Assembly (NCBI RefSeq): GCF_017357425.1
Contig: NZ_CP014571.1
Location: 3,844,001-3,908,000 of the forward strand
Reading direction: 5' to 3'
DNA length: 64,000 bases
Origin: Arthrobacter sp. D5-1
GTDB taxonomy: Bacteria > Actinomycetota > Actinomycetes > Actinomycetales > Micrococcaceae
Shown one piece after another: positions 4,751 to 64,000 of this stretch. Below the pieces are notes generated by a model that was not told the DNA's origin, ran no database searches, and was given only the letters and a program-made list of their open reading frames with translations. A program made the position numbers and the translations under genes. Position 1 is the stretch's first letter, and each line of letters opens with the position of its first letter.

Positions 4751-6113
4751 CCTCTCCATGGCCCTCAGGCTCACCCCGTACCTTGCGCGGAGCAACGGCA
4801 GCAGCCTCCGCGAAACAGGCCTCCGCGACGCCGGCCTGCCGGTCCTCGCTTTCGGAACCGTCACGGCCCTACTGCTCACTGTTGCCGGCGGCTCGCAGGT
4901 TTTCTGGTCCTGGTCCGACGACATCGCAGGCACTTACCAAGCGCTCGCCGTCGTCGCCATGGTCTTGCTCATCATCCCGCTCCTGACGCTGGGCGCCTCG
5001 GCCGCGCGACTGGCCGCCCGCCGTCGTGATGACCGCTTGGCTTCCTTGCGCCTGCTGGGCGCCAACAGCGCCACCGTGGTGTGGATGACCGTCATCGAGT
5101 CCACAGTGCTCGCGGCGGTGGGAGCGCTGGCGGGCGCGGGACTATACGCGTGCGTTGCACCGTTCCTCGGCCTGATCCAGTTCCGCGGCCAAGCCATAGG
5201 CGGCCATGCTTGGCTGTCCGTGCCCTCCATCCTCGGTTGCATCCTGGGCGTCTGCGTGCTGGCCGCTGCGAGCGCCGCCCTTGGACTGCGGAAAGTCGTG
5301 GTCACCCCGTTGGGCGTCAGGACCAGGCAAACGGCCGACGGCGCGCATTGGGTTCGCGGACTCATCGCCGCTGTCGTGGTGGTGGTCGGAGTCATCGCGA
5401 TGGGGATGCTCAGCAGCTTTGGTGCGTACATCGTCATCATCGCGGTGATGGGCGGCTGCTTTGGCTTGGCACTGCTCGCCTTGAACCTGATGGGTCCTTG
5501 GATCCTGCGGTTGCGCGCGTCCTCGCAGCTCAAGCGGGCCAAGCGACCCGAGCAGCTGCTGGCCGCCCGGACAGTTCTGGAGAGCCCCAAGGAATCGTGG
5601 CGGCAAGTTGGGGGCGTCGCGATGACCAGCTTTGTGGGGGTGTTCGTGGGCGTCGGCATGGCAGTGGCCGACACCATGGGCGGCAGCGCCACGGATGAGA
5701 CGGCGTTGTTGGTCCGGGACATCAACACCGGGGTAATGATCACCCTGTTGGGTTCATTCCTGATGGTGGCCTGCTCAGCCGGCGTGAACCAGGCGGCAGC
5801 AGTTCTTGACCGGGCGTCCACCTTGGTGGCCCTGGACCGGGTGGGCATGCCGCGCAAACTCATGGTCGCTGCGCGGGTCAAAGCCGTCATGTCCCCGCTG
5901 TTCCTGGTGGCCGGCATCTCTGCGGCTGCTGCGGCCGCGCTGGTCCTGCCGTTGACGGGCATGGTGTTGTTGACCCAGCCCGTGGTGTTCCTGACCATCG
6001 GCGGAGTGTTCGCCGCCGGTTTCCTGCTGGTCCGTCTGGCCGTCGCTGCCGGGACAGCGCAGATCAGCCAGGTGCTGGCCCGCCCGGAGCGTTACGCGAG
6101 CATGGACTCCTGA
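4743..6113 (+). CDS. FtsX-like permease of ABC transporter
   Basis: The 456-residue integral membrane protein has many hydrophobic segments and the layout of FtsX/MacB-type permeases, including the ARLAARRRDDRLASLRLLG stretch after the early membrane segments and a second repeat in the C-terminal half (VALDRVGMPRKLMVAARVK). ATG 4743 overlaps the ATPase stop and has AAGGGTG upstream. Together with the ATPase it probably exports a peptide, lipid or antibiotic. The substrate is not evident. Confidence 0.88.
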   Translation: MSSLSMALRLTPYLARSNGSSLRETGLRDAGLPVLAFGTVTALLLTVAGGSQVFWSWSDDIAGTYQALAVVAMVLLIIPLLTLGASAARLAARRRDDRLASLRLLGANSATVVWMTVIESTVLAAVGALAGAGLYACVAPFLGLIQFRGQAIGGHAWLSVPSILGCILGVCVLAAASAALGLRKVVVTPLGVRTRQTADGAHWVRGLIAAVVVVVGVIAMGMLSSFGAYIVIIAVMGGCFGLALLALNLMGPWILRLRASSQLKRAKRPEQLLAARTVLESPKESWRQVGGVAMTSFVGVFVGVGMAVADTMGGSATDETALLVRDINTGVMITLLGSFLMVACSAGVNQAAAVLDRASTLVALDRVGMPRKLMVAARVKAVMSPLFLVAGISAAAAAALVLPLTGMVLLTQPVVFLTIGGVFAAGFLLVRLAVAAGTAQISQVLARPERYASMDS

Positions 6114-55826: not shown

Positions 55827-57273
55827 GGCTCTTCGCGGTTGATGGTGAAACAGGTTCCGTGTCTTGAAATCTGAAGGGCTCGTAGCCCTGCTGTGATGGA
55901 TGTTCTCTACGCATTCATCAAGAGTCAGGAGCTACGAGCCTTGAACGAGCCTACTTCGCCGCGCCCCGATGCTGCCACCGCCATTTTCAACCTGCCCGAC
56001 TACCGGGTCACCGGCACCGAGGTCCTCGCCTTCGGGCAGCGACGGATCCGCGTCGTGGCCACCGCCGAGGCCGGCTGCCCGTCCTGCGGCGTGATCAGCA
56101 CCCGCGTGCATTCACGCCGGTCACAACGCCTGCGTGACATCCCTGTCGCCGGCCCGGTCGAAGTGGTCTGGGCCAAGCGGAGGTTCTTCTGCGATGAGTA
56201 CCTGTGCCCCCGCCGGACATTCACCGAGGAGACAGCCGAGGTACCGCGCCGGGCACGGTCCACCCGCCGGCTCCGTGAGGCCCTGGTGGCCGCCGTGATC
56301 GGTTCCGGGAGGGCCGCCGCCGAGGCTGCCTCTTCATTCGGTGTCTCGTGGTGGCTTGTCCAGCGGGCACTGGATTCCGCGGCGCTGACGCTGCCCGATG
56401 TCGATGCCCTGGCACCGCGGATGCTCGGCATCGATGAACACCGCTACCGGTCCGTGCGGTTCTTCCGCGACCCTGCCACGAAGGCCTGGAAACGCTACGA
56501 ACCCTGGATGACCACCATCGTCGATCTCGACACCGGACAAGTCCTCGGGATCGTTGACGGCCGCGACAGCGAGGGGGTAGGAGACTGGCTGTTCGCCCGC
56601 CCGCTTCAGTGGCGGCTGGGCGTGCAGGTCGTTGCCATCGACCCCTCGGCGGCGTTCCGCAAGGCCCTGCGGATGTGGCTTCCACGCACCGCTGTCTCAG
56701 TCGACGCGTTCCACCTGGTCAAGCTCGGCAACGACATGCTCACCGAAGTCCGGCAACGACTCACCCAGCAGACCCATGGTCGGCGGGGGCGCTCCATCGA
56801 TCCGGTCTGGGCCAACCGGCGACTGCTCCTGCGCGCCGGGGACACGCTCTCGGATCGGGCCCGGGACAGGCTCAGCAACGTGTTCGCGACCGACGATGTC
56901 ACCGGGAAGCTGCAGGCCGCGTGGCTGGTCAAGGAACAGCTCCGGGCCCTGCTGACTACCGGCTCTCTTGCCGACGCTGCCGCCGCGAAGGACCGGCTGC
57001 AGGTCCTGGTCGAGCGAGCCGCGCAGCCGGAGACGAACCGGCTGTGGCGCACAATCTGCCGGTGGTGGAAAGAGATCGAAGTCCTCATTGTCACCGGTGC
57101 GACAACCGCGAAAGTGGAAGCCAACAACACCGCGATAAAACACATAAAGAGGACGGGTCGGGGATTCACCAACGCACGCAACTACAAAACCCGTATCCTG
57201 TTGCGCAGTGCCGCCAGAACAGCGGCATGAACATCCCTCACGGCAGAACGTTCACCACGAACCGTGAAGAGCC
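55827..57273 (+). mobile_element. ISL3-like insertion sequence, copy 2 (nested in copy 3)
   Basis: This full-length 1,447-bp copy is inserted in copy 3 in opposite orientation, with a perfect 8-bp duplication TCTTTATG (55819-55826 and 57274-57281). It is the youngest insertion here. Confidence 0.95.
55893..57230 (+). CDS. ISL3-family transposase, copy 2
   Basis: The 445-residue product is identical to the copy 1 transposase, with the same start options 48-66 bp inside the left end. Intact and presumably active. Confidence 0.93.
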   Translation: MMDVLYAFIKSQELRALNEPTSPRPDAATAIFNLPDYRVTGTEVLAFGQRRIRVVATAEAGCPSCGVISTRVHSRRSQRLRDIPVAGPVEVVWAKRRFFCDEYLCPRRTFTEETAEVPRRARSTRRLREALVAAVIGSGRAAAEAASSFGVSWWLVQRALDSAALTLPDVDALAPRMLGIDEHRYRSVRFFRDPATKAWKRYEPWMTTIVDLDTGQVLGIVDGRDSEGVGDWLFARPLQWRLGVQVVAIDPSAAFRKALRMWLPRTAVSVDAFHLVKLGNDMLTEVRQRLTQQTHGRRGRSIDPVWANRRLLLRAGDTLSDRARDRLSNVFATDDVTGKLQAAWLVKEQLRALLTTGSLADAAAAKDRLQVLVERAAQPETNRLWRTICRWWKEIEVLIVTGATTAKVEANNTAIKHIKRTGRGFTNARNYKTRILLRSAARTAA

Positions 57274-58531
57274 TCTTTATGTGTTTTATCGCGGTGTTGT
57301 TGGCTTCCACTTTCGCGGTTGTCGCACCGGTGACAATGAGGACTTCGATCTCTTTCCACCACCGGCAGATTGTGCGCCACAGCCGGTTCGTCTCCGGCTG
57401 CGCGGCTCGCTCGACCAGGACCTGCAGCCGGTCCTTCGCGGCGGCAGCGTCGGCAAGAGAGCCGGTAGTCAGCAGGGCCCGGAGCTGTTCCTTGACCAGC
57501 CACGCGGCCTGCAGCTTCCCGGTGACATCGTCGGTCGCGAACACGTTGCTGAGCCTGTCCCGGGCCCGATCCGAGAGCGTGTCCCCGGCGCGCAGGAGCA
57601 GTCGCCGGTTGGCCCAGACCGGATCGATGGAGCGCCCCCGCCGACCATGGGTCTGCTGGGTGAGTCGTTGCCGGACTTCGGTGAGCATGTCGTTGCCGAG
57701 CTTGACCAGGTGGAACGCGTCGACTGAGACAGCGGTGCGTGGAAGCCACATCCGCAGGGCCTTGCGGAACGCCGCCGAGGGGTCGATGGCAACGACCTGC
57801 ACGCCCAGCCGCCACTGAAGCGGGCGGGCGAACAGCCAGTCTCCTACCCCCTCGCTGTCGCGGCCGTCAACGATCCCGAGGACTTGTCCGGTGTCGAGAT
57901 CGACGATGGTGGTCATCCAGGGTTCGTAGCGTTTCCAGGCCTTCGTGGCAGGGTCGCGGAAGAACCGCACGGACCGGTAGCGGTGTTCATCGATGCCGAG
58001 CATCCGCGGTGCCAGGGCATCGACATCGGGCAGCGTCAGCGCCGCGGAATCCAGTGCCCGCTGGACAAGCCACCACGAGACACCGAATGAAGAGGCAGCC
58101 TCGGCGGCGGCCCTCCCGGAACCGATCACGGCGGCCACCAGGGCCTCACGGAGCCGGCGGGTGGACCGTGCCCGGCGCGGTACCTCGGCTGTCTCCTCGG
58201 TGAATGTCCGGCGGGGGCACAGGTACTCATCGCAGAAGAACCTCCGCTTGGCCCAGACCACTTCGACCGGGCCGGCGACAGGGATGTCACGCAGGCGTTG
58301 TGACCGGCGTGAATGCACGCGGGTGCTGATCACGCCGCAGGACGGGCAGCCGGCCTCGGCGGTGGCCACGACGCGGATCCGTCGCTGCCCGAAGGCGAGG
58401 ACCTCGGTGCCGGTGACCCGGTAGTCGGGCAGGTTGAAAATGGCGGTGGCAGCATCGGGGCGCGGCGAAGTAGGCTCGTTCAAGGCTCGTAGCTCCTGAC
58501 TCTTGATGAATGCGTAGAGAACATCCATCAC
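57182..58531 (-). pseudogene. ISL3-family transposase, copy 3, 3' end replaced
   Basis: The frame matches the other copies up to AIKHIKR and then reads into copy 2, replacing the last 24 residues (including the conserved GRGFTNARNYKTR region) with about 28 unrelated ones. The enzyme is probably inactive. Confidence 0.9.
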
Positions 58532-58901
58532 AGCAGGGCTACGAGCCCTTCAGATTTCAAGACACGGAACCTGTTTCACCATCAACCGCGAAGAGCCAGG
58601 TTGACTTGGCGATGCCGCATTCACGTGCCAGTGCCGTACTCATCTCGCCGGCTTGGTAGCGAGCTACGAACTGAGCCAGTTCATCCGAGCTGAAGCGATC
58701 GGCGATGCGGTAGCGCTGAGTCTTCAGAATAGCTTGCGGCGGGCGTGACTTCATATGGCCAGCATCCACACGTTCGAGGGCAGCGGCGATCGTCATGAGC
58801 TGGTCCAATTTGTGGAGGGCATGCCTGGAATAACATGCAAGGACCTCGACCAATTGATACCTAAGGATGCTTACTCGAAACAAAAAGCATCAATCGATAA
58901 G

Positions 58902-59060: not shown

Positions 59061-59120
59061 TGTGGCAACCAGCCCTTCTGACGACGGAATTATCAGTCGC
59101 CTGTTCAGCTGGTTGCCACA
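59061..59120 (+). promoter_or_regulatory. leader stem-loop before the beta-helix gene
   Basis: TGTGGCAACCAGC (59061-59073) and its exact reverse complement (59108-59120) form a 13-bp stem with a 34-nt loop inside the leader, ending 46 nt before the start codon. It could be an RNA regulator or a protein-binding site. Confidence 0.55.
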
Positions 59121-59166
59121 CAGGCGCAACCTCCCTTGCCAGGAAAGGCCAGCAGAGAGGTTTCAC

Positions 59167-59811
59167 ATGTCTACAGTCATTGAAACGAAAGAAATTGCAG
59201 GTCAGATCTGCCACCGTCATCCAAATGGCGGAGGGTGGGTATCTGAGTCTGCAACTGTCGCCGAGACAGCGTACATTGGCCCTCGCGCCATGGTCTTAGG
59301 CCATGCGAAGGTTCTTGATACGGCTCGTATCGACGGCAACAGCAGTGTCTTCGGCAATGCTGTCGTGTGTGACAATGCGAGAGTCCAAGATGCCAGCCCC
59401 GTTGACATACTCAAATCCATATTTGAGCGAACTACCAAGGGTCCCGTGGGCGGCGTCCGGATTTGCGGCAATGCCCGCGTATCCGGCAACACCTGGATCG
59501 CTGGCAATGCCCTCATCACAGACCACGCAGTCATTTCCGGACAGGCATGGGTATATGACCATGCCGAAGTTGGAGGTAACGCGCAAGTGGGCGACAGGTC
59601 GAGAGTTTATGGTCACGCAAAGGTGCGAGGTAACGCTCGCATCGGCGACAGAGCCTTTGTCTTCGACCAGTCAACTGTCTCCGGCGCCTCTGAGGTCGCC
59701 GACCACGCACACGTCAAGGGCAAAGCCAAGATATATGGCAAGTCCAAGATCGGTGGCAAGTCGGTTGTCTCCGGAGATCAACGACTCGTTAGCCGAGTTC
59801 TGAGTGACTGA
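59167..59811 (+). CDS. left-handed beta-helix (hexapeptide repeat) protein
   Basis: The 214-residue protein is built of repeated six-residue units typical of left-handed beta-helices, seen as GNARVS, GNTWIA, GNALIT, DHAVIS, GQAWVY, DHAEVG, GNAQVG and onward to the C-terminus. A 40-residue insertion (about 82-98 region, SPVDILKSIFERTTKG) breaks the coil. No acyltransferase catalytic site is recognisable. ATG 59167 has AGAGAGG upstream; the longer open frame from 59062 covers the leader stem-loop and is rejected. A bidirectional hairpin ends it. Confidence 0.8.
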   Translation: MSTVIETKEIAGQICHRHPNGGGWVSESATVAETAYIGPRAMVLGHAKVLDTARIDGNSSVFGNAVVCDNARVQDASPVDILKSIFERTTKGPVGGVRICGNARVSGNTWIAGNALITDHAVISGQAWVYDHAEVGGNAQVGDRSRVYGHAKVRGNARIGDRAFVFDQSTVSGASEVADHAHVKGKAKIYGKSKIGGKSVVSGDQRLVSRVLSD

Positions 59812-59868: not shown

Positions 59869-60312
59869 CTACGCACTTTTTCCCTCGCTGCTCGTCAGCA
59901 AGAAGATTCTCGCCGTGTCGTAGCTACAGCCGACTTGCTTGGCGATAGTACGGATGGTCATTCCCTGCCTTCGGAGCTGGAGAATCTTCTCTCCTTGGGC
60001 GGCGGTGAGCTTACGCGACCGAGTGCGGACATTTCGTTCAGCCAGGAGGCGAAGGAAAGCCGTTTTTGAGATACCGCTCTCTTTTGCCAGTGCCGTGCTC
60101 ATCTCGCCGGCTTGGTAGCGAGCGACGAGCTGATTGAGTTCGTCGGGTGTGAAGCGATCAGTCAGGCGGTAGCGATGCGCGGGACGAGGCTTCTTGGCTG
60201 GAGGACGGCGGAGTTCAGCTGCATCGATCCGATCCAGGGCGTCGCGGATGACATCGAGCTTGTCGATAGTCCAGCTGGCCCGGTTCGAGTAACATCCTAG
60301 GACCTCGACCAA
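59869..60312 (-). CDS. helix-turn-helix protein, intact paralogue
   Basis: The product of about 147 residues has a helical N-terminus (LVEVLGCYSNRASWTIDKLD), then HRYRLTDRFTPDELNQLVARY, MSTALAKESGISKTAFLRLL and a second HTH-like unit ending IAKQVGCSYDTARIFLL, like a resolvase/invertase DNA-binding end without a catalytic domain. The start is unsure: TTG 60312 matches the paralogue; an ATG at 60405 would require reading through a terminator hairpin. Function unknown; DNA binding is likely. Confidence 0.75.
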   Translation of the reverse strand: MVEVLGCYSNRASWTIDKLDVIRDALDRIDAAELRRPPAKKPRPAHRYRLTDRFTPDELNQLVARYQAGEMSTALAKESGISKTAFLRLLAERNVRTRSRKLTAAQGEKILQLRRQGMTIRTIAKQVGCSYDTARIFLLTSSEGKSA

Positions 60313-60314
60313 AC

Positions 60315-60347
60315 AAAGAGGGTCTTCCACATGGAAGACCCTCTTTT
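60315..60347. terminator. hairpin upstream of the intact helix-turn-helix gene
   Basis: A perfect 14-bp stem (60315-60328 with 60333-60346), loop ACAT, with T-runs on both strands. It lies just before the presumed start of the minus-strand gene, as in the split paralogue. Confidence 0.85.
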
Positions 60348-60375
60348 GTGTTTCCCCTGTCCTTGCGAATGAGCA

Positions 60376-60422
60376 AAAAGAAAACCCCGGAGCATCGCTC
60401 GTCACGCTCCGGGGTTTCTTTT
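60376..60422. terminator. terminator after the peptide gene
   Basis: A stem of about 17 bp with one bulged A (ACCCCGGAGC/GCTCCGGGGT core) and A/T runs on both sides follows the minus-strand peptide gene by 12 nt. It could also be the original right-hand flank of the element. Confidence 0.9.
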
Positions 60423-60434
60423 ACTACAATTGAT

Positions 60435-60650
60435 TTACATGGGGTCCGGCCAGTTGCCGATGGACATCGGCGTGTACGTGGTGTCCGTTGACTTGGTCGG
60501 CGCCGCTACGCGCATAGGATCGGGCCAGTTGCCAATAGCACTGACGGTGCTGGAATCGGCTGCGGGAGCAGCAGAGACCACACCGGGAGCCGCGACTGCG
60601 AACGTCAGTGCGCCCGCCACGGCCACTGAAGCGATGATTTTCTTGAACAT
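60435..60650 (-). CDS. secreted repeat peptide precursor (candidate signal peptide pheromone)
   Basis: The 71-residue precursor has a classic Sec signal peptide (FKK, hydrophobic core, cleavage near residues 27-31 in VSAAPA) followed by a 40-residue secreted part with IGNWPDPM twice: residues 39-46 and at the very C-terminus 64-71. The two copies differ at four codons, all synonymous, so the peptide sequence is under selection. It diverges from a helix-turn-helix/TPR regulator gene. This is the layout of peptide-pheromone and receptor pairs such as Phr/Rap, PapR/PlcR. ATG 60650 has only a weak G-rich site upstream. Confidence 0.8.
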   Translation of the reverse strand: MFKKIIASVAVAGALTFAVAAPGVVSAAPAADSSTVSAIGNWPDPMRVAAPTKSTDTTYTPMSIGNWPDPM

Positions 60651-60710
60651 GATGTAGTACCCCAATGCGAGTCGGATTCGTTACGGAAATTGCACGGTCC
60701 CTGTTGACAT

Positions 60711-60743
60711 ACATTGTAAAATGTTTTCCACAGAGACTGTCAA
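60711..60743 (-). promoter_or_regulatory. promoter/operator between peptide and regulator genes
   Basis: On the minus strand TTGACA (60743-60738) is followed after 19 bp by TACAAT (60718-60713), or after 17 bp by TTTACA. The interrupted palindrome ACATT-GTAA-AATGT (60711-60724) covers the -10 region. TTGACA at 60704-60709 and its complement at 60738-60743 form a wider inverted repeat. The regulator could act here. Confidence 0.5.
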
Positions 60744-60777
60744 GGTTTTGGTCAAAAGACACCTGTAGGAGGGACCC

Positions 60778-62043
60778 GTGGGAAACGGATTCGGCGAGAA
60801 GCTACGTGCCGAACGGCTCGAACGTGGGTTGACGCAGGCAGAGCTCGGCAAAAACCTGTATTCGCCCAGCTACATTTCGCTGCTGGAAACAGGCCGTCGC
60901 GAACCAACGGCTGAGGTCATCGAAGAACTGGCGCGCCGGCTCGAACTCGCGCCCAAAGCCTTGGAAGCGTGGAGCCAACCCGTTTCCGTGAGCGACGCAG
61001 AGTACGTCCTCGCCGGACTCTACGCCCGGCAAGCCTGGGACCTCCGCGACTACCAACTCGCTGCCAGCCACGCCGCCACCGCCGCGCAGATCGCCCTTGA
61101 GGCCAAGAACAACAGCGCCTGGTGGAACATGACGTACATGCAGGCCGAATGCGTCATGAAACAAGGGCAGCTGAAGGAATGCCAGCAAATCGTTGAGCAC
61201 CTCCTGGAGCACCCTATGGGCACCGAATCCGCCGGCCTGGGAGTGCGCGCCTGGCAGATGCTTGCCGCGGTGTGTCACGGACAAGGTCAGCTGGCCACCG
61301 CCGTCGAGCATGCCAAGCAAGCCGTCAAACTCAGCGAACAGCTGCCCAAGGGTTCCACTCTCATCATCGGCGCGCACCGCGCGCTGATTGGTGCACTTGC
61401 CGAGAGCGGCAAGCTTGATGAGGCCTGGGAGTATTGCCTGGCCATGATCGAGCACATGGACGAGCACTCCATGTCCCAGCTCGCCGGCGAGGTGGCGTGG
61501 GTGGTAGGCAACGTGGCCTTCATGCGCCACGACTATGTGGAGGGGATCAAGCACCACGAGCGCGCGGCCAAGCTCCTCTCCCCCGCCAACGACATCGAAC
61601 TGTGGGCCCGCTTCAACAAAGCCTCCGCAGCGGTCCGGCTGTCCTCGGGGATCGTGGAACCGGAAACCCTTTCCGCCATTGAACGTGCGGAACTCGCGCT
61701 GTCCATTGTGGGCGGAAACAAGACGGATCAGCTGGAGGTTGCCTTCATTCGCGCCCGCTGGCTGTACCTGACCGGCGACATTCCGGCCGCCGTCGAAAAG
61801 CTCCGCGAAATCCATGCAGACCGCAAGGTCCTGGCCCGCCACACTGCCGGCGAAGTCTCGCTGTTGCTCGGGAAGTCACTAAAAGCCGCCGGCGAAGCCT
61901 TTGAGGCCCTCCAGTTCCTGGAAGAGGCCCAGCACGACTTCAGCGCGGCCGGAGCTTCAGACAGGGTCCAGCAGGCCATGGACGCCGTGCTGGAGATCCG
62001 ACTGGCTGAGCGCCGTGCGGCGAAGGAGCACTCGGAAGCGTAG
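60778..62043 (+). CDS. helix-turn-helix/TPR regulator (RRNPP-like)
   Basis: The 421-residue protein has an XRE helix-turn-helix (about 8-62, LTQAELGKNLYSPSYISLLETGRREP) followed by about 350 residues of TPR-type helical repeats (ARQAWDLRDYQLAASHAATAA, AWQMLAAVCHGQGQLATAVEHAKQA, ARWLYLTGDIPAAVEKL). This is the layout of the RRNPP receptors, whose TPR part binds re-imported peptides. GTG 60778 has AGGAGGG upstream. It diverges from the peptide precursor gene, 127 bp apart. Confidence 0.88.
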   Translation: MGNGFGEKLRAERLERGLTQAELGKNLYSPSYISLLETGRREPTAEVIEELARRLELAPKALEAWSQPVSVSDAEYVLAGLYARQAWDLRDYQLAASHAATAAQIALEAKNNSAWWNMTYMQAECVMKQGQLKECQQIVEHLLEHPMGTESAGLGVRAWQMLAAVCHGQGQLATAVEHAKQAVKLSEQLPKGSTLIIGAHRALIGALAESGKLDEAWEYCLAMIEHMDEHSMSQLAGEVAWVVGNVAFMRHDYVEGIKHHERAAKLLSPANDIELWARFNKASAAVRLSSGIVEPETLSAIERAELALSIVGGNKTDQLEVAFIRARWLYLTGDIPAAVEKLREIHADRKVLARHTAGEVSLLLGKSLKAAGEAFEALQFLEEAQHDFSAAGASDRVQQAMDAVLEIRLAERRAAKEHSEA

Positions 62044-62101: not shown

Positions 62102-63040
62102 TTAGGCGAACGTACGGCCGGTGAGTTTCTCGTAAGCCTCCACATAGCGGGCGCGGGTGCGCTCCACAACCTCGGCAGGCAGGGCGGGCGGCGGTATGTC
62201 GGAGGACTTGTCCCAGCCGGACTCGGCGGACGTCAGCCAGTCGCGGACGTACTGCTTGTCATAGGAGGGCTGCGACTTGCCCGGGGCGTACGTGGACGCG
62301 TCCCAGAAGCGCGAAGAATCCGGGGTGAGGACTTCGTCGCCCAGCGTGATGATGCCAGTGGCTGCATCAATGCCGAACTCCACCTTGGTGTCGGCCAGGA
62401 TGATGCCGCGTTCGCGGGCGATCTCCTCGGCGCGGGTGTAGATCTTCAACGTCAGCTCGCTGAGTCGTGCGGCGATATCATCGCCCACCATGGCCACAAC
62501 GTCGTCGTAGGTGATGTTGACGTCGTGTTCGCCCACCTCGGCCTTGGCCGACGGAGTGAACAGCGCCTTGTCCAGGCGGGAGCCGTCCACGAGGCCTTCG
62601 GGCAACGGAATCTCGCAGACCGTACCGGATTCCTTGTACTCCACCAGGCCGGAGCCAGTGAGGTAGCCGCGGGCAATGCACTCCACCGGGAACATGTCCA
62701 GCTTCTTGCAGATCATGGCCCGGCCCTCGACGGCGGCAGGAACGCCACCGTCAACCGTGGACGCCAGCACATGGTGCTCCACGTCCAACTGGTCGAACCA
62801 CCACAGGCTCAGCTGCGTCAGGACGCGGCCCTTGTCCGGAATTTCGCTGCTCAGAACATGGTCGTAGGCGCTGATGCGGTCGCTGGCCACTACCAGGACG
62901 CACTCTTGGCCGATCTTCTCCGTGATGGCTTCATCGGCCGGGATGTAGAGGTCGCGGACCTTGCCGGAGTAGACGTGCGTCCAGCCCGGAAGCTCCAGGG
63001 TCTCCGTTTCGAACCCGCCGGTGGGGAGTCCTTCAGTCAT
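62102..63040 (-). CDS. purC: phosphoribosylaminoimidazole-succinocarboxamide synthase
   Basis: The 312-residue SAICAR synthase joins aspartate to CAIR with ATP in purine synthesis. It has the family motifs SGKVRDLY, VASDRISAYDHVL, ECIARGYLTGSG and ADTKVEFGID. The length fits the longer, SAICAR-synthase-only type seen in actinobacteria and yeast. It starts 2 nt after the purD stop and is the last gene of the pair. Confidence 0.95.
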   Translation of the reverse strand: MTEGLPTGGFETETLELPGWTHVYSGKVRDLYIPADEAITEKIGQECVLVVASDRISAYDHVLSSEIPDKGRVLTQLSLWWFDQLDVEHHVLASTVDGGVPAAVEGRAMICKKLDMFPVECIARGYLTGSGLVEYKESGTVCEIPLPEGLVDGSRLDKALFTPSAKAEVGEHDVNITYDDVVAMVGDDIAARLSELTLKIYTRAEEIARERGIILADTKVEFGIDAATGIITLGDEVLTPDSSRFWDASTYAPGKSQPSYDKQYVRDWLTSAESGWDKSSDIPPPALPAEVVERTRARYVEAYEKLTGRTFA

Positions 63041-63042
63041 GC

Positions 63043-64000
63043 CTAGGCCTGCACTTTCGGGATGGTTCCGGTGGCCGTGTGCGGTACGCGGATTTCACCC
63101 CGGGCGGCCTTGCCACCGATGTCCGTGCGGAACTGTGAGCCTTCAAGCTGAACCAGCTCCACGCCGTCGTACGCTTTTTCGCGCGCTTCCACCAGATCGG
63201 AACCAAGCGCGACAACCGCAAGGACGCGGCCGCCTGCGGAGATCACCTTGCCTTCGTCATCCAGCTTGGTGCCGGCGTGGACCACGTGCACGCCGTCCAG
63301 CTCATCAACCTTCTTCAGCCCGCGGATGCGGTCACCCGTCCGGGGTGCGTCCGGGTAGTTTTCGGCGGCTACGACGACGGCGACTGCTGTGTCCTTGGAC
63401 CAGCGCAGCTCCTCGGCGGTGTCCAGTTCGCCCTTGGCAGCTGCCAGCAGCAGCGCGCCGAGCGGCGTCTTGAGGCGGGCCAGGACAGCCTGCGTCTCGG
63501 GATCGCCGAAGCGGACGTTGAACTCGATGACTCGGGTTCCGCGGGAGGTCAGGGCCAGGCCGCAGTAGAGCACGCCGACGAAGGGGGTGCCGCGGCGGGC
63601 CATCTCGTCCACGGTGGGCTGGGCCACGCGGTCGATGACTTCCTGGACCAGGCCTTCGGGAGCCCACTCAAGCGGGGTGTACGCACCCATGCCGCCGGTG
63701 TTGGGGCCTTCGTCGTTGTCGAAGATGCGCTTGAAATCCTGCGCCGGGGACAGCGGGACAGTGGTGCGGCCGTCGCAGAGGACGAACAGGGAAACCTCGG
63801 GGCCGTCAAGGAATTCCTCGATCACCACGGTTCCACCGGCGTCGAAGCAAGCCTGCGCGTGGGCCAAAGCCTCCGCGCGGTCCTTGGTGACCACGACGCC
63901 CTTACCTGCGGCAAGGCCGTCGTCCTTGACGACGTGCGGCGCGCCGAACGTGTCCAGGGCGTCAGCAGCTTCCTCGGCGTTGGTGGCCACGCGGGCCATG
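63043..64000 (-). CDS. purD: phosphoribosylamine-glycine ligase (N-terminus cut off)
   Basis: At least 319 residues of the ATP-grasp enzyme that makes GAR are visible: VKDDGLAAGKGV, EEFLDGPEVSLF, GPNTGGMGAYTP and EFNVRFGDPETQ. About 110 N-terminal residues are missing because the window ends; the ATG near 63999 is internal. Confidence 0.95.
   Translation of the reverse strand, partial: MARVATNAEEAADALDTFGAPHVVKDDGLAAGKGVVVTKDRAEALAHAQACFDAGGTVVIEEFLDGPEVSLFVLCDGRTTVPLSPAQDFKRIFDNDEGPNTGGMGAYTPLEWAPEGLVQEVIDRVAQPTVDEMARRGTPFVGVLYCGLALTSRGTRVIEFNVRFGDPETQAVLARLKTPLGALLLAAAKGELDTAEELRWSKDTAVAVVVAAENYPDAPRTGDRIRGLKKVDELDGVHVVHAGTKLDDEGKVISAGGRVLAVVALGSDLVEAREKAYDGVELVQLEGSQFRTDIGGKAARGEIRVPHTATGTIPKVQA

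Follow-up and report, generated by a model that had tools for sequence, protein, structure and literature searches.

The window analysed here is a stretch of 64,000 nucleotides from the soil actinobacterium Arthrobacter sp. D5-1 (contig NZ_CP014571.1, positions 3,844,001 to 3,908,000), and at its positions 60435-62043 a small gene for a putatively secreted peptide precursor lies back to back with a gene for a regulator that joins a helix-turn-helix (HTH) domain to tetratricopeptide repeats (TPRs). An initial annotation, made from the sequence of the window, had proposed that the two form a peptide-signalling pair in which the regulator is the receptor, and we compared the pair with relatives in the genus, the family and the class. 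The features concerned are as follows; the coordinates of both genes include the stop codon.

60435-60650, minus strand: peptide precursor gene, 71 aa including two IGNWPDPM copies
60438-60461, minus strand: C-terminal IGNWPDPM copy, residues 64-71
60513-60536, minus strand: internal IGNWPDPM copy, residues 39-46, differing from the C-terminal copy at four codons, all synonymously
60651-60777: divergent intergenic region of 127 bp, presumed site of both promoters
60704-60743: conserved block TTGACA..CATTGTAAAATG..TTCCACAG..CTGTCAA, its ends forming an inverted TTGACA/TGTCAA pair; probably operator and promoter
60711-60724: palindrome ACATT-GTAA-AATGT
60778-62043, plus strand: HTH-TPR regulator, probable peptide receptor, 421 aa, GTG start
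60790-60969, plus strand: HTH domain (HTH_31, PF13560), residues 5-64, E 8.4e-12
61156-61158, plus strand: receptor codon 127, encoding Met; 38 of 42 Val-type receptors (defined below) have Ile
61171-61173, plus strand: receptor codon 132, encoding Leu; 38 of 42 Val-type receptors have Trp
61276-61278, plus strand: receptor codon 167, encoding His; 39 of 42 Val-type receptors have Gln

The minus-strand open reading frame (ORF) encodes the 71-aa precursor MFKKIIASVAVAGALTFAVAAPGVVSAAPAADSSTVSAIGNWPDPMRVAAPTKSTDTTYTPMSIGNWPDPM, the N terminus of which resembles a signal peptide, with a lysine-rich start, a hydrophobic core and A-x-A sites, as judged by eye and from hydrophobicity. The two 24-nt copies encoding IGNWPDPM differ at codons I1, P5, D6 and P7, in every case synonymously, as the initial annotation had described. 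Its account of the regulator, diverging from the peptide gene over 127 bp and combining HTH with TPRs, was equally correct, both HTH_31 (E 8.4e-12) and TPR_12 (E 2.9e-8) scoring above the Pfam cut-offs. The AlphaFold2 model, built on an alignment of 36 sequences, has a mean predicted local distance difference test score of 92.1 and consists of an HTH head followed by paired helices as far as the C terminus.

From the four silent differences it had been argued that the peptide itself is selected, and a wider comparison bears this out: over 133 copy pairs within 53 distinct precursors, 356 of the 380 codon differences are synonymous. Between precursors, differences were non-synonymous at 600 of 5,624 compared codons in the C-terminal copy (38 distinct sequences) and at 5,945 of 28,200 in the 25-codon signal region (48 distinct sequences), and the 44 precursor homologues found by protein search have variable spacers and near-identical copies. 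Judged from these codon counts, purifying selection acts on the octapeptide.

The regulator is present in all 61 sampled genomes of the genus, in one of them split in two pieces (two frames at G053:C1:3486053-3487296, in an assembly that is 79% complete). At each of the 50 genus loci fetched from these 61, a small ORF for a secreted protein containing the WP motif diverges from the regulator. Among named species of Paenarthrobacter, Arthrobacter and Pseudarthrobacter, a divergent WPDP frame occurs at 80 of 80 loci, these being the best 80 of 323 relatives and perhaps including some assemblies of the genus sample. Rules on the start and on hydrophobicity passed 77 of the 80, and the other three still hold the WPDP frame. 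The 77 precursors carry two motif copies in 41 cases, three in 17, four in 15 and one in four, with IGNWPDPM the commonest form (130 copies), followed by VGNWPDPM (49), IGNWPDPA (10), IGNWPDPV (5) and three others. The pairing is not a matter of chance, because every fetched orthologue has the divergent WPDP frame. In the other slots around the regulator, upstream on the same strand or downstream on either strand, ORFs satisfying our rule (a WP close to the C terminus or a terminal CC) occurred in at most 2 of 50, 1 of 56 and 3 of 69 entries of the Micrococcaceae sets. Codons for the pattern [IVM]GxWP[DN] occur seven times in the 5.1-Mb genome, where the reversed pattern used as a control has four occurrences; two peptide genes, that of the IGNWPDPM precursor and one beside a TPR paralogue, account for four of the seven. 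Chance or artefact is ruled out by the slot comparison, the synonymous drift and this whole-genome count.

On the sequence evidence, the best indication that the peptide is read by the TPR domain is a linked switching of residues in the two partners. We considered 112 distinct receptors from pairs of the GNWPDP type, leaving out identical receptors, those shorter than 400 aa, genus and family entries below 65% identity and loci lacking the GNWPDP motif. Peptide position 1 is Ile in 70 and Val in 42; all 70 Ile-type receptors have Met127, Leu132 and His167, whereas the 42 Val-type receptors comprise 38 with Ile127-Trp132-Gln167, three with Leu-Tyr-His and one with Met-Leu-Gln. On the tree, position 1 changes five times by parsimony, four of these changes being forced by well-supported branches, and receptor columns 127, 132 and 167 change four times each, always together with position 1. 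These are the only three of the 231 variable receptor columns to reach four coincident switches, for which the probability by chance is about 1e-5 over all columns, a rough figure that assumes equal branches; the trees are quick ones, in which several forks of the Ile/Val part have support below 80. One locus within a Val clade (L026) has gone back to an Ile peptide with a Met-Leu-His receptor. In the AlphaFold2 model residues 127 and 167, which are 40 residues apart, lie at the ends of equivalent helices in successive repeats, and the bulkier Trp132 accompanies the smaller Val, as would be expected of a contact pocket. Residues W241, N245, W276 and N280 of the receptor are invariant in one of the alignments. 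Recombination moving both genes together could yield such linkage, but the other columns in the stretch do not follow. Peptide position 8 (Met, Ala, Val and others) gave no comparable signal: the best receptor columns share three of its five changes, but themselves change 11-29 times, scattered over the tree. Because position 1 switches with three receptor residues, we consider that the regulator probably recognizes the peptide directly, a line of evidence additional to those of the initial annotation.

The palindrome noted in the gap between the genes lies within a block of 40 bp that is conserved across the genus, most of its columns being over 90% conserved in 46 distinct intergenic sequences. 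The 20-bp core of the block occurs exactly once in the genome, and the next best matches are two sites with three mismatches. The conserved block and its unique core fit an autoregulated operator, to which sequence assigns no particular binding protein, and direct control of the peptide promoter by the regulator, as proposed initially, is plausible.

We regard it as highly probable that the pair is a peptide signalling system working like the RRNPP systems of Firmicutes. Of the initial proposal, the pairing has held, and octapeptide and palindrome alike have proved to be conserved. After export by the Sec pathway, extracellular cleavage of the precursor would release units of IGNWPDPM, or of a form a little longer than the octapeptide, and the peptide would re-enter through an oligopeptide transporter; ten SBP_bac_5 proteins were counted. 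Inside, it would occupy the groove formed by the regulator's TPR superhelix and alter the hold of the HTH domain on the conserved operator, so that the pair would regulate itself and perhaps a few other genes. Secretion, processing, import and binding, like the sign of the regulation and its dependence on cell density, are steps that we infer.

The D5-1 genome yielded just one further relative of the regulator, a TPR protein of 355 aa without an HTH domain, 39% identical to the regulator over the TPR part. Its gene likewise diverges from one for a secreted precursor, which carries its motif twice and ends in IGWWPN, and directly downstream of the TPR gene lies a GGDEF-EAL gene with a HAMP match below the cut-off. 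Second matches starting at residue 51 or later, and thus without the HTH, were counted by hand in 33 of the 61 genus genomes. A WP peptide stands beside TPR-only receptors in 66 of 69 entries, nearly all from Micrococcaceae; the three doubtful entries, apparently the three misses, are L094 and L258, in which the frames look broken, and L249, which is from another family. The endings include IGWWPN, VGWWPH, IGSWPN, VGNWPF, VNNWPY, IGNWPY, MGNWPH, GNNNWPL and AGGLWPY, and in some precursors the repeated motif is followed by a short tail. A co-directional ORF with a GGDEF motif was found in the downstream flank, mostly of about 1.5 kb, in 32 of 56 TPR-only entries, compared with none of 106 HTH-TPR entries; the 32 include one locus (L121_0) at which the GGDEF gene follows the second receptor. 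In a tree of 210 entries most TPR-only receptors form one group of 46 among the HTH-TPR receptors, with a Shimodaira-Hasegawa-like approximate likelihood ratio (SH-aLRT) support of 96, and a second group of seven is placed apart. The receptors have thus probably diverged into two branches, one controlling transcription and the other acting on a cyclic-di-GMP enzyme, cyclic-di-GMP being the likely output of the TPR-only receptors. At one locus (L044:1027-1383, minus strand) a DUF7793 gene (PF25056, E 5e-13) lies between the TPR-only receptor and the GGDEF gene, and ORFs of similar size occur at some other loci; it may be a further output component of this branch.

Full-length relatives of the regulator also occur in other families of the order and class, among them Jiangellaceae (L269, from Phytoactinopolyspora halophila), and a class profile at E values of 1e-20 or lower matched 102 of 394 class genomes, Micrococcaceae included. 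A small secreted ORF that satisfies the WP/CC rule occupies the divergent slot in 49 of the 91 class entries that do not belong to our Micrococcaceae sets; the CC part of the rule was chosen after the first class loci had been inspected. On the same strand such ORFs were found upstream in three entries and downstream in none, and 28 entries have none in any slot; entries scored as negative include other short endings, such as WNHPG, GPWGYPI and WNGPW. The endings that follow the rule include PDWPGMCC, SPGDFCC, DPGMYCC, AGPPVCC, HPPTCC, GGTWCC and NWPKCC, with DIGWP and DIEWP twice each. Nine of 30 class loci had been fetched earlier, and of the other 21, listed by eye, 18 have a CC end or WP, these coming mostly from one family and so not being independent; among 40 lower-scoring loci only about 13 have CC or WP in the divergent slot, again by eye. 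The downstream antiparallel slot, intended as a control, holds such an ORF in 16 of the 91 entries, five of which also have a divergent one; in set D it holds 13 CC ORFs, nine of them beside receptors without an upstream peptide. They look like genuine peptide genes in another position, a reading adopted post hoc. At four loci (L296, L297, L299 and L302) two different CC-ending secreted peptides flank one receptor.

On plasmids there are 25 records of distant relatives, below 60% identity; of five inspected, two have a WP or CC peptide and three do not. One, on a Streptomyces plasmid, lies one annotated gene away from a hypothetical protein that contains NVEWP and ends in DVEWP, and on a plasmid of S. 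goshikiensis a small protein ending in IPLCC is encoded just downstream of the regulator. Seven pattern matches in viral contigs yielded no confirmed relative, nor did phage records contain one, and a phage origin was therefore rejected. Taken as a whole, it is reasonably probable, if less so than the interpretation of the pair itself, that actinobacteria possess a class-wide pheromone system, with HTH-TPR and TPR-only intracellular receptors, neighbouring secreted peptides of at least two ligand classes (G-x-W-P, C-terminal or repeated, and a cysteine-pair end), coupled switches, and outputs to transcription or to cyclic-di-GMP enzymes.

An unlikely alternative, though the least unlikely of those we weighed, gives the secreted peptide an effector role (antimicrobial, metal-binding or at the envelope) and leaves the regulator only to set the peptide's expression according to some other signal. 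Small secreted repeat proteins can be bacteriocins or metal binders, the peptide gene and the regulator share their upstream region, many class relatives end in CC and might thus bind metal or be redox active, and NCBIfam gave matches, very weak and non-significant, to HvfA (E 0.35) and an HHHH protein (E 0.77). If the regulator ignored the peptide, however, the switching of position 1 with three receptor residues would be unexpected; also against this reading, TPR-only relatives, which have no DNA-binding domain, retain a peptide in 66 of 69 entries. The covariation is also compatible with intracellular sensing of a precursor that has yet to be exported or whose export or processing has failed, in which case the pair would monitor secretion or the envelope rather than population density; the same cell makes receptor and precursor, and import is one of the steps we infer. 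The multiple copies with variable spacers suggest instead that cleavage frees several mature peptides, and we rate intracellular sensing slightly below the effector. That the genes are linked by history alone, the repeats being a low-complexity expansion, would suit a copy number ranging from one to four, but is highly improbable in view of the synonymous nature of nearly all differences between copies, the different but related peptides of paralogous receptors elsewhere in the genomes, and the covariation of peptide and receptor.

Two observations weigh against peptide signalling as the function of the pair. Eukaryotic TPR proteins match the fold of the regulator better than Rap or NprR do, and 36 of 56 HTH-TPR entries at family level, that is, from more distant Micrococcaceae, have no peptide gene in the divergent slot. 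A search upstream and on both sides of these 36 found no convincing secreted ORF, and one (L146) of the 20 scored as having a peptide is doubtful. Regulators without an adjacent peptide had been named in the initial annotation as a finding that would speak against the pair, as had a poorly conserved C-terminal octapeptide: the octapeptide is conserved, the fetched orthologues are all paired, and some of the paralogues are not. The peptide-less label (L107-L112, L122-L124, L154-L155 and L157 are among its bearers) clusters on the tree, with 25 changes compared with 64 in shuffles, all entries and near-copies included. These regulators may be orphan receptors, may take a peptide from elsewhere, or may have lost their input; by analogy they are possibly eavesdropping or repurposed receptors, 'eavesdroppers' being the term given in part of one survey (PMC9765709) to Firmicutes RRNPPA receptors without a pheromone gene.

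If peptide signalling is indeed the function, the recurrence of pairs with varied endings suggests that actinobacteria use a peptide language, a kind of signalling hardly known from their phylum, where quorum sensing has been described mainly through small molecules, according to the relevant passages of PMC10075063 (compare PMC4748050). A code shared across the class, with relatives on plasmids of Streptomyces, would make cell-cell communication in these bacteria accessible to genetic and chemical work: peptides as short as these ligands (6-8 residues) can be synthesized immediately, the coupled switch between peptide Ile/Val and receptor residues 127, 132 and 167 is a ready test of specificity, and the TPR-only branch offers a peptide input into cyclic-di-GMP signalling.

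Directly downstream of the peptide gene lies an ORF of 178 aa with a resolvase-type HTH (59869-60405, minus strand; PF02796, E 1.1e-12), which a shorter ORF at 58557-58883 resembles by eye. Also near the pair are two near-identical ORFs of 445 and 449 aa (55893-57230, plus strand, and 57182-58531, minus strand), inverted with overlapping ends and transposase-like by eye, and an ORF of 249 aa (59062-59811, plus strand, start uncertain) with many hexapeptide-type repeats (..GNA.V..) and, by eye, the look of a left-handed beta-helix. Downstream of the regulator, on the opposite strand, are ORFs 62102-63040 and 63043-63999 (both minus), which we take to be the purine-biosynthesis genes purC and purD.

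Among known systems, RRNPPA receptors are expected to have about 250-500 aa, TPRs of the peptide-binding type and optionally an HTH (a size rule given in part of PMC10075063), with a propeptide of 10-100 aa encoded immediately next to the receptor; the regulator has 421 aa with HTH_31 and TPR_12, and the precursor 71 aa, 127 bp away and divergent. Profile comparison ranks PlcR first among natural relatives of solved structure (E 2.5e-10), with a match confined to positions 3-196 and due partly to the HTH; PlcR appeared in the first Foldseek list and was absent from the 50 rows of a second look, and PF18768 matched the regulator at E 0.22. The pair differs from PlcR-PapR and NprR-NprX of the Bacillus cereus group in being actinobacterial (Actinomycetota), in its ligands, with G-x-W-P or a C-terminal CC, which we know of in no RRNPPA ligand, and in the usual presence of repeats, at least two copies in 73 of the 77 named precursors passing the start rule. 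Moreover, papR and nprX lie downstream of their receptor genes, whereas the peptide gene here is divergent. The TPR-only receptors, each with a cognate exported peptide and no DNA-binding domain of its own, resemble the Rap-Phr systems of Bacillus and phages, but Rap acts on response regulators whereas 32 of 56 TPR-only entries here have a GGDEF-motif gene downstream. The Phr propeptides of phages can likewise contain tandem pheromones (PMC11343458).

A likeness also exists to the NsdA family of Streptomyces (NCBIfam NF053720), likewise actinobacterial TPR regulators. Three of six relatives scanned scored weakly, at 24 to 48 bits against a cut-off of 75 bits, and the regulator of the window had no match to this model at E values up to 1; the titles and abstract openings covered by our literature search do not link NsdA to a peptide. 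Published RRNPPA surveys covered Firmicutes and viruses (PMC10075063) or Firmicutes (PMC9765709), as far as the available portions of these papers state, and the available portion of a 2016 review of actinobacterial quorum sensing (PMC4748050) contains no such receptor-peptide pair, nor did our search of the literature (open-access papers, with few subscription journals and no preprints) find an actinobacterial pair of this kind. Without claiming descent from RRNPPA, we propose from architecture and gene pairing that the D5-1 pair works like an RRNPP system.
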